NCBI GenBank assembly: GCA_018060465.1
Contig: JAGOVX010000004.1
Coordinates: 1-42,249, forward strand
DNA length: 42,249 nt
Direction of reading: 5' to 3'
Source of the DNA: Candidatus Saccharimonadota bacterium
GTDB taxonomy: Bacteria; Patescibacteriota; Saccharimonadia; Saccharimonadales; Saccharimonadaceae
Shown here piece by piece: positions 23,838 through 25,809 of this stretch. Below the pieces are notes generated by a model. That model made no database searches, was not told where the DNA came from, and worked only from the letters and a program-made list of their open reading frames with translations. A program made the translations under genes and the position numbers. Within the stretch, counting starts at the first letter, position 1. Each line of letters starts with the position of its first letter.

Positions 23838-23914
23838 GGGTCCGTAGCTCAGCTGGTTAGAGCACCTGCCTTTTAAGCAGGGTGTCATGGGTTCAAGCCC
23901 CATCGGACCCTCCA
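23838..23914 (+). tRNA. tRNA-Lys (TTT)
   Basis: Complete cloverleaf: acceptor GGGTCCG/CGGACCC (7 perfect pairs), D-arm GCTC...GAGC, anticodon stem CCTGC/GCAGG with loop CTTTTAA (anticodon TTT), T-arm ATGGG-TTCAAGC-CCCAT and encoded CCA. The discriminator base is T (23911), whereas lysine tRNAs usually have A or G there. The 3' end from 23894 to 23914 is repeated downstream. Confidence 0.93.
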
Positions 23915-23915
23915 A

Positions 23916-23948
23916 GAAAAATCACTCACTACGGTGAGTGTTTTTTTT
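23916..23948 (+). terminator. Terminator of tRNA-Lys
   Basis: CACTCAC-TACG-GTGAGTG (23923-23940) followed by eight T, directly after the tRNA. Confidence 0.85.
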
Positions 23949-23973
23949 GGCATTGTGTTCGTCAGGATTGGTT

Positions 23974-23995
23974 CCATGACACCCGGGTGTCATGG
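23974..23995. repeat. 22-bp perfect palindrome derived from tRNA-Lys sequence
   Basis: Arms CCATGACACCC and GGGTGTCATGG meet with no loop. The right arm, extended to 23996, equals tRNA-Lys positions 23880-23891 (variable region and start of the T-arm). Confidence 0.8.
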
Positions 23996-24101
23996 GTGAG
24001 AACTGCCAGTGGCAGTTCGCAAGACGATGTCACGGACAATCTTGATTGTCCGACTGACTCGTGGGGTCGCGGAACGTGACCAAGCCCCATCGGACCCTCC
24101 A
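23985..24101 (+). repeat. Interrupted copy of the tRNA-Lys 3' half, attachment-site-like
   Basis: GGGTGTCATGGG (23985-23996) and a 21-nt block at 24081-24101 ending in CCA both repeat the tRNA-Lys 3' half exactly (23880-23891 and 23894-23914). In the tRNA these two blocks are two bases apart; here 84 nt intervene. The insert is itself folded: GAACTGCC-AGT-GGCAGTTC and GGACAATC-TT-GATTGTCC hairpins. Repeats of tRNA 3' ends are normally left by integrase-type elements, but no integrase is near. Confidence 0.7.
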
Positions 24102-24140
24102 TAGAAACATACCGTCATCTAGGTGACGGTATGTTTCTAT
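24101..24140. terminator. Strong bidirectional terminator
   Basis: A 17-bp perfect stem (24101-24117 with 24124-24140) around a 6-nt loop TCTAGG. It lies just after the minus-strand oxidase stop codon and after the tRNA-Lys repeat. The T-runs are short, so efficiency rests on the long stem. Confidence 0.7.
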
Positions 24141-25793
24141 CTAAAACTTTTTGCGTAGGTGATTCATGCTGAAGTGCCAGTTTGCGTCAGTCTTTTTGTG
24201 CGGATTGAAAATATTTTCAGGGTCAAAAATTTCTTTTACTCGTTTGAAATAGCCAAATACCTCGGGGCCGTACATATCCTTGAGCCATGGGCCACGAATC
24301 ATGCCATCATTGTGCTCGCCGGAAAGTGAACCGCCATATTTTAGTACAATTTCATTGATCTCGTGCATGGCGGGTTCAAGCTTGGCTTGTTCACCTGGTT
24401 TTTCAATGTTCATCAGCGGAATAATATGGAAGTTGCCATCACCCATGTGCCCAGCAATAGTTGCAAAGAGTTTGTATTTTTTGATAACGCGGCGAATTTC
24501 CGGAAGGAATTTTGGCAATGTGTTTGGTGGAACAATCAAATCATCCATAAAAGGCGCTGTGTGTTTATCGCGTACTTTTTGTCGTAAAATATTGAAGCTT
24601 GAACGTCGCATGATCCAAAACTTACGGCTTTTGGCCTCAGTTTCATCTTCTTCAAACAGCGATTCGTGCTTGAACTCCTTTAGGTCTAGCCGCATTTGGT
24701 GAACTTTCTGAGCCACTTCTTCTTGTGTGTCGGCTTGAAATTCTATCAGCAGAACCATTTGTGGGATACCACGCAGTAGCTTTAGTAACTCAGGCAGTAG
24801 CTGCAAGCCGAGCTTGAAGGTGCCCCACCAGCCAATTTGCGTATGGAAGTAGAAAAATAATTTGAAGCTGAGTACTAGTGTGTAATTATCGAAGCCCTCA
24901 AAGGTGGCAGGATTGTGCGTGAGTACTTTGTTGATGAGATCACCAAGATCGTTAGTGTGACGCAAAAACATTACGAGGGTGCCGGAATGTTTTGGTGCGG
25001 GAGTAAGGCGAAAATTGATATCTGTTACGATACCAAGGGTACCTTGCGAACCAACGATTAGCCGTGTGATATCAAATATGCCGGTATCGCGATCCCACAC
25101 CTTCCACAGATGGTAGCCGGTTGAATCTTTGCTGACATGAGGTCTGGCATTTCGAATAGCATCATAATTTTGTTCGCAAAGTTCATAGACATCTCTGTAG
25201 AGGCGCCCTTCAAAATCTTTCTGAGCCATTTTTTTATCAAGCTGTTTTTTGGTAAGCTTTTTCATTTCGTACTCATTGCCATCTCGAAGTACGACGCGAA
25301 TAGATTCAATAAATTCTTCCGTTTTACCGTATTGCAGCGAGCGTTCGCCGCCGGCATTATTGGCGACCATACCACCCACGGTGCATAGTTCGCGTGAGGC
25401 AGGAAAACTAGGCATCAACACGCCATGCTTTAAGGTTTCCTTCTCGAAGTCGCGATAAAAAGTTCCTGGTTGCACATGAGCTGAAGTTTTACTCACAGGG
25501 CCGATGGCATGCAGGTATTTGTTGAAGTCGAGAATGATTGAATCGTTGATCGAGCCACCCGACATACAGGTACCACCACTGCGTACGGTGACAGATAGTT
25601 TGTGATTGTGCTTCTTTTGCGCGCTGACATAGCGAACAACGGCTTGCACATCGGCACTGTCTTTTGGCGCAACCACTAGTTCGGGCCGTAGCTCAAACAT
25701 ACTTGCATCGTGACTAAATGCTTCCTTGATTTCTGGCGAATCATTTACGTCGCCACGAATAATTTCCTTGATTTCTTGTGTAAGATTTCCCAT
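24141..25793 (-). CDS. FAD-linked oxidase, GlcD/D-lactate-dehydrogenase type
   Basis: 550 aa from the ATG at 25793; an in-frame ATG at 25808 would lie on the -10 box. FAD-binding PCMH domain: PELVVAPKDSADVQAVVRYVS, VRSGGTCMSGGSIN, then PASRELCTVGGMVANNAGGERSLQYG and GSQGTLGIVTDINFRL. The C-terminal oxidase domain ends with HMGDGNFHIIPLMN, SGEHNDGMIRGPW and the FDPENIFNPHKK motif. Such enzymes oxidise D-2-hydroxy acids, for example lactate or glycolate. There is no Fe-S domain. Divergent from the NDH-2-like gene, it may feed electrons into the same small respiratory chain; this is an inference. Confidence 0.9.
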   Translation of the reverse strand: MGNLTQEIKEIIRGDVNDSPEIKEAFSHDASMFELRPELVVAPKDSADVQAVVRYVSAQKKHNHKLSVTVRSGGTCMSGGSINDSIILDFNKYLHAIGPVSKTSAHVQPGTFYRDFEKETLKHGVLMPSFPASRELCTVGGMVANNAGGERSLQYGKTEEFIESIRVVLRDGNEYEMKKLTKKQLDKKMAQKDFEGRLYRDVYELCEQNYDAIRNARPHVSKDSTGYHLWKVWDRDTGIFDITRLIVGSQGTLGIVTDINFRLTPAPKHSGTLVMFLRHTNDLGDLINKVLTHNPATFEGFDNYTLVLSFKLFFYFHTQIGWWGTFKLGLQLLPELLKLLRGIPQMVLLIEFQADTQEEVAQKVHQMRLDLKEFKHESLFEEDETEAKSRKFWIMRRSSFNILRQKVRDKHTAPFMDDLIVPPNTLPKFLPEIRRVIKKYKLFATIAGHMGDGNFHIIPLMNIEKPGEQAKLEPAMHEINEIVLKYGGSLSGEHNDGMIRGPWLKDMYGPEVFGYFKRVKEIFDPENIFNPHKKTDANWHFSMNHLRKKF

Positions 25794-25803
25794 AACTACT
25801 TTT

Positions 25804-25809
25804 AGCATA
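25804..25809 (-). promoter_or_regulatory. -10 box TATGCT of the oxidase
   Basis: TATGCT on the minus strand, 10 nt before the ATG at 25793. It makes the longer start at 25808 unlikely. Confidence 0.4.

Follow-up and report, generated by a model that had tools for sequence, protein, structure and literature searches.

A family of short folded sequences, here termed EL1, recurs beside tRNA genes of Saccharimonadales and is probably a non-autonomous mobile element that parasitises these genes, the tRNA being rebuilt beside it. EL1 measures about 84-90 nt, is non-coding and has the layout TGA-H1-GCAAG-H2-GG-H3, in which three hairpins are joined by invariant UGA and GCAAG linkers. The reading draws on the family and its fold, its linkage to tRNA genes with a strand bias, the replacement of two tRNA nucleotides, inverted tRNA copies, nesting, copies that have moved, and gain and loss among relatives, all of which were observed.

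The window is the whole stretch of 42,249 nt that was analysed, from a Candidatus Saccharimonadota bacterium (contig JAGOVX010000004.1). In it, an intact plus-strand tRNA-Lys(TTT) with encoded CCA occupies positions 23838-23914 (ARAGORN; Rfam RF00005, 71.1 bits) and is followed on the same strand by its terminator-like hairpin and TTGG (23916-23947, from the fold of this interval). Because EL1-free tRNAs have similar terminators, the terminator palindrome (CCA...TGG) was rejected as a part of the inverted duplication, and only the antisense tRNA piece beyond it counts as evidence for an inverted copy. This piece, recognised by its antisense match to its own tRNA, is a degenerate minus-strand copy of the 3' half of tRNA-Lys (T-arm) and reads TTGG..CCATGACACC at about 23959-23983. 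Together with the sense T-stem strand it forms hairpin P0, a perfect 22-bp palindrome (CCATGACACCC/GGGTGTCATGG, 23974-23995, inverted repeat I3). The sense copy of the tRNA is split. Its variable loop and 5' T-stem strand lie at 23985-23996 (plus strand, exact repeat D2), and its 3' end with CCA lies at 24081-24101 (plus strand, exact repeat D1). Between the two pieces, the 84-nt EL1 insert, TGAG...GTGAC, runs on the plus strand from 23997 to 24080 and replaces T54-T55 of the tRNA copy, with boundaries taken from comparison with the tRNA; the match of a covariance model spans 23997-24081 (88.3 bits, E 1.8e-19).

The initial annotation had described a repeat of the tRNA-Lys 3' half, split around an 84-nt folded insert and accompanied by a 22-bp palindrome, and this description was borne out. 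Its second block of 21 nt was exact as claimed (CAAGCCCCATCGGACCCTCCA, 23894-23914, again 187 nt downstream at 24081-24101), but its first block measures 13 nt rather than 12 (GGGTGTCATGGGT, 23880-23892, again 105 nt downstream at 23985-23997). An exact 21-nt repeat at a distance of 187 nt far exceeds chance. The palindrome was likewise correctly seen; its mirrored block is one arm of the degenerate minus-strand piece that copies this half of the tRNA. Downstream, a perfect hairpin with 20-bp arms (24101-24140, inverted repeat I1, 95% complementary) is probably an outer terminator in common with a convergent minus-strand FAD-oxidase gene (24141-25808). Compared with shuffled sequence, RNA folding gave z = -6.7 for 23949-24145, a stretch that includes this outer terminator hairpin, and DNA folding gave z = -4.6 for 23965-24110.

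Within the EL1 of the window, covariation supports hairpin H1 at 24000-24018 (8 bp with a triloop, followed by the conserved GCAAG at 24019-24023), H2 at 24024-24062, variable in sequence with a conserved stem that is also seen in the fold, and H3 at 24065-24081 (GGTCGCG GAA CGTGACC, including a conserved G-U pair), all on the plus strand. An alignment of 40 diverse EL1 copies, A1, was made with MAFFT before any model, and the covariance model R1 was built next. Across 124 R1 matches, 96.7% of the paired cells can pair compared to 73.6% after shuffling, both-sided changes occur at 29 of 30 pairs, and the covariation score is 0.585 against 0.164 for shuffled and at most 0.086 for slid alignments. 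These 124 matches were aligned to the structure itself; alignment A1, which predates the model, still shows 95.8% of cells pairing, both-sided changes at 26 of 30 pairs and a covariation of 0.507. Among the non-Watson-Crick pairs of the sense strand, G·U far outnumbers A·C (200 vs 18), with one position being G·U in 104 sequences, and the selected form is therefore the single-stranded sense strand, be it RNA or DNA.

EL1 is a structured family without earlier description. Rfam covariance models searched against the EL1 of six loci gave no match at the gathering threshold or at E<=1, and no account of it was found in searches of the open-access literature. An autonomous, gene-carrying form of EL1 was looked for and not seen; the copies without a recognisable H3 (loci L023, L034 and L164) are truncated or variant. 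A subtype at L030, L042, L086, L124 and L166 has GGCCGGAAACC..GTTGAGGC as its H2 and a longer H3.

The insert is multi-copy, which the initial annotation had named as a point to check. BLAST located it at three other places in the same genome and in 26 of 60 relatives, and the covariance model R1 finds seven copies in that genome, each adjoining an intact tRNA. The tRNAs concerned are Lys-TTT (the window), Lys-CTT, Pro-GGG, Gly-GCC, Leu-GAG and Gln-CTG, with two EL1 copies in tandem 160-bp units at Leu-GAG. In an even sample of Saccharimonadales, R1 detected 1-36 copies in 38 of 79 genomes. A sample of 287 genomes across the phylum yielded eight positives, all of them Saccharimonadales and none outside the order. 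A degenerate-pattern scan returned at least 118 stretches; among the named matches listed, most are titled Saccharibacteria, Saccharimonadia or Patescibacteria, and a minority Parcubacteria or just "bacterium". No match was found to plasmids, nor to viral contigs in an exact-pattern search. An assembly artefact was rejected, as the same architecture recurs across numerous assemblies made independently, one of them that of the single-contig genome G069 with its 17 copies.

The relation to tRNA genes was assessed with 189 distinct EL1 copies from a structural motif search, for which neighbouring tRNAs were called by ARAGORN. A tRNA lies within 150 nt on the same strand in 140 of the 189 copies and on the opposite strand in one. 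Another 21 have a same-strand tRNA at a greater distance, and 27 have none in the scanned flank, nine of these being too near a sequence end to judge. Occurrence of the same block in unrelated tRNA-free loci had been named in the initial annotation as a finding that would refute it. This is not what is seen: for 161 of the 189 copies, the flank that was scanned holds a tRNA on the same strand. The associated tRNAs are of many isotypes. EL1 typically lies within a partial copy of the adjoining tRNA, at the region of its D-, anticodon- or T-loop, and is accompanied by an inverted piece of the tRNA. The loci follow two mirror layouts. In the downstream type, to which the window belongs, the order is intact tRNA, terminator-like hairpin, antisense 3'-half piece, sense T-stem strand, EL1 and tRNA 3' end. 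In the upstream type, a 5' part of the tRNA that extends as far as one of these three loop regions is followed by EL1, a short sense fold-back stretch, the antisense piece and the intact tRNA. When downstream loci are folded, P0, H1, H2 and H3 are often enclosed by a stem in which the antisense piece pairs with the 3' fragment of the tRNA.

The antisense piece resembles its own tRNA far more than other tRNAs (p=3e-24 for type A intervals at 70 loci, and 5e-15), and the outer sense fragment likewise fits the adjoining tRNA over others, with p values across these and the antisense tests ranging from 3e-36 to 5e-15. Exactly two tRNA nucleotides are replaced by EL1 in about 51 of the 69 cases with readable flanks, at all three loop sites. 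The single opposite-strand copy (L028, 1504 +, tRNA-Phe) lies in antisense tRNA sequence that appears to be the second arm of the tRNA palindrome, suggesting that the inverted copy may predate EL1 entry there. At L246 (genome G005, tRNA-Lys-CTT), the 3' T-stem strand CCCTC of the tRNA mismatches its own 5' strand CTGGG and fits GAGGG of the adjoining EL1 unit, which suggests a chimeric, possibly defective tRNA-Lys into which a foreign unit has recombined.

Several observations together indicate mobility. EL1 copies sit within H3 of other EL1 copies at L127, L103, L117 and L083, at L127 with the same two-nucleotide replacement. At the tRNA-Glu locus L031, copies that are 98.8% identical occupy the D-loop of the upstream fragment and the T-loop of the downstream fragment, and copies of 94-95% identity adjoin tRNAs that are unrelated and lie on separate contigs. 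Within a single genus, tRNA-Lys(TTT) carries EL1 in G000 and G011, only a displaced tRNA 3' piece in G005, and nothing in G001, G003, G004, G007, G010 and G013, and tRNA-Lys(CTT) of G006 has kept only an H3-like remnant. The small mobile hairpin element considered in the initial annotation is thus supported: EL1 is multi-copy, inserts into itself, varies in presence among congeners and has near-identical copies at different tRNA sites. In the six genomes compared, mean EL1 identity is 66% within and 63% between genomes, so that there is no sign of a recent burst there and most copies are old, though the fold is kept; this speaks against a simple active transposon. The nearest EL1 copy has the same tRNA and side in 13% of cases against 3% expected. 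Strict vertical inheritance at each tRNA was rejected on this figure, and vertical descent explains just a minority of the copies.

How an insertion might proceed is read from the comparison of loci, and the following steps are proposed. The functional form would be the single-stranded sense strand with its three hairpins, which would enter the D-, anticodon- or T-loop region of a tRNA, or else stem H3 of a second EL1 copy, and displace two nucleotides. An inverted tRNA copy without EL1 beside a sense copy with EL1 is what a template switch onto an EL1-free strand would be expected to leave, suggesting insertion into a single strand and fold-back repair. Repair of this kind, by fold-back or template switch, would rebuild the tRNA either while the insertion takes place or later, a step that we infer because a cell with an insertion in a single-copy tRNA gene could not survive without it. 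The surviving locus would then comprise the truncated, invaded tRNA copy, an inverted copy of a tRNA half in between, and the adjoining intact tRNA. Mobilisation would presumably be in trans, by an enzyme encoded elsewhere than in EL1. We know of no mechanism that predicts this combination of two replaced nucleotides, an inverted copy and a restored tRNA.

The strong covariation with its sense-strand bias and the persistence of the fold in old copies could also be expected of a structured RNA that benefits the host or regulates tRNA genes in cis, which is the main rival. The sense piece, the antisense piece and EL1 would then be one multi-arm RNA, whose antisense piece pairs with either the decoy or the real tRNA and by this alternative pairing tunes tRNA expression or processing. 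The enclosing stem of the downstream loci and the excess of nearest copies at the same tRNA and side would fit such a role, and an RNA serving the host in this way would represent a regulatory RNA of a new, tRNA-linked type. Still, we consider it unlikely, given the patchy occurrence between close relatives with scars and remnants, the nested and tandem copies, the near-identical EL1 in different loops, and the fact that no one tRNA is always served. The RNA with an expanded T-arm that the initial annotation had offered describes the fold of the T-loop cases, but it does not hold for the whole family, many copies being located at the D-arm. On the other hand, the downstream type, a regenerated tRNA with its 3' end displaced from the T-loop, recalls tRNA-integrated genomic islands (Islander, PMC4383910), and the locus might be a displaced fragment left by a tRNA-site integrase, with a miniature integrative element flanked by the intact tRNA on one side and its displaced end, 3' or 5', on the other (a distance of 187 nt in the window). 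As in these islands, an intact tRNA adjoins its displaced fragment, and the outer sense fragment fits its own tRNA. However, the 187 nt between the tRNA pieces hold no gene, no integrase was seen to accompany EL1, the units span only 150-190 bp, and the inverted tRNA piece, the two-nucleotide replacement, the insertion of EL1 in EL1 and the D-arm sites are left unexplained. An integrase origin thus appears very improbable, and the attachment-site scar of a lost integrative element suggested in the initial annotation finds no support in that form, the same conserved insert being found at D-, anticodon- and T-loop sites and to either side of tRNAs.

EL1 begins with GUGAG and ends with GAC, resembling the ends of group II or III introns, and its loop positions and nested copies could also suggest a tRNA intron that splices itself or is spliced by proteins. 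Inserts in tRNA loops and tRNA fragments linked to mobile DNA are similarly a feature of the introns of archaeal tRNAs and of tRNA gene disruption by mobile elements (PMC4090602, PMC3293823). Yet archaeal introns are spliced from functional tRNAs, whereas EL1 is bacterial and its host copies are truncated and accompanied by an intact tRNA. The exons have lost two nucleotides, and judged from their sequence the truncated host copies would remain non-functional after removal, rather than joining to a functional tRNA. Neither a group I or II intron nor another Rfam ribozyme was matched by the EL1 of six loci, and reverse transcriptases were rejected as partners, being present in 7 of 38 versus 9 of 41 genomes (Fisher p=0.78). 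An intron is hardly credible on these grounds.

A mobile element parasitising tRNA genes, the preferred reading, leads to the question of the enzyme. RAYT-like Y1 transposases are encoded in the source genome (four genes or pieces) and in related genomes, and EL1 occurs in 22 of 28 genomes with RAYT compared to 16 of 51 others (Fisher p=7e-5, uncorrected for phylogeny). A RAYT-type tyrosine transposase is the sole correlated candidate for mobilising EL1. That EL1 is itself a REP-like repeat mobilised by RAYT is the best explanation with a named machinery, but on balance a rather doubtful one. The EL1-rich genomes G069, G043 and G071 have no RAYT above threshold, which excludes it as an obligate partner, and the RAYT loci tested carry other inverted repeats and no EL1 at the gene ends. 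REP/REPIN sequences and EL1 are both short, palindromic, non-autonomous repeats with short-loop hairpins (PMC3733652, PMC2817692, PMC3116915). REP elements consist of a single 20-40 nt palindrome with a GTAG (or CGTC) tag (PMC3733652), as single hairpins or dimers; EL1 is no such single tagged palindrome and differs in its three hairpins, its TGAG left end and TGAG...GTGAC frame, and its tRNA-bound, sense-only placement. The RAYT-like genes at L156, L157, L159 and L219 have their own terminal inverted repeats, which differ by gene, several with AGGTGTAATTTT before the start. In a single case (L303, G096 C3), where EL1 lies upstream of tRNA-Gly-GCC, a RAYT gene is located just past the downstream inverted tRNA-Gly piece.

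In behaviour, EL1 would seem closest to the double-hairpin or repetitive hairpin-forming elements of fungal and sponge mitochondria (PMC2800124), which are likewise short, non-coding, dispersed hairpins, found in RNA genes too, with compensatory stem changes; the likeness to tRNA-integrated islands would be in layout only. Compared by description, the mitochondrial elements differ in their location, their fewer and simpler hairpins, and their lack of a tie to an inverted partial tRNA copy. We know of no two-nucleotide replacement rule for them. MITEs have terminal inverted repeats and a target-site duplication. In EL1, the TGAG...GTGAC ends are not inverted repeats, and two nucleotides are lost, not duplicated.

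Other tRNAs in the source genome and its relatives have different inserts in the same architecture. For 15 of the 38 tRNAs of the source genome, a partial sense or antisense copy in the flank exceeds the 99th percentile of control alignments; tRNA-Phe among these 15 is an artefact of an adjoining tRNA-Gly fragment. EL1 could tentatively be seen as one of several unrelated families (EL2, EL3) that use the same route, and so of a new class of tRNA-dependent parasites in which a folded RNA or single-stranded DNA enters a tRNA, removes two nucleotides and leaves an inverted decoy, the tRNA being rebuilt. If so, Saccharibacteria would harbour an undescribed tRNA-directed insertion or repair machinery. 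Their genomes are very small, and a minimal bacterium would then host an ecology of sub-100-nt elements in decoy tRNA copies. The covariance model, together with natural insertions numbering well above a hundred, provides a resource for seeking the responsible enzyme, and the decoys call for caution in tRNA annotation of Saccharibacterial genomes.

EL2 inserts are found downstream of tRNAs at L051, L115, L120 and L124 and, in the source genome, at L301 (tRNA-Leu-GAG) and L279 (tRNA-Gln-TTG), in the order antisense tRNA 3' half, TTTTGC..GCAAAA hairpin, sense T-arm, insert with a GAGCGGAGGAGC..CGATA motif, and tRNA 3' end. EL3-like inserts in the source genome precede the intact tRNA, each with a 5' fragment of a tRNA on one side and an antisense piece on the other, at L271 and L270 (tRNA-Lys-CTT), L269 (tRNA-Thr-GGT, repeated units), L273 (tRNA-Met) and L272 (tRNA-Trp), and some of them are tandem identical units.
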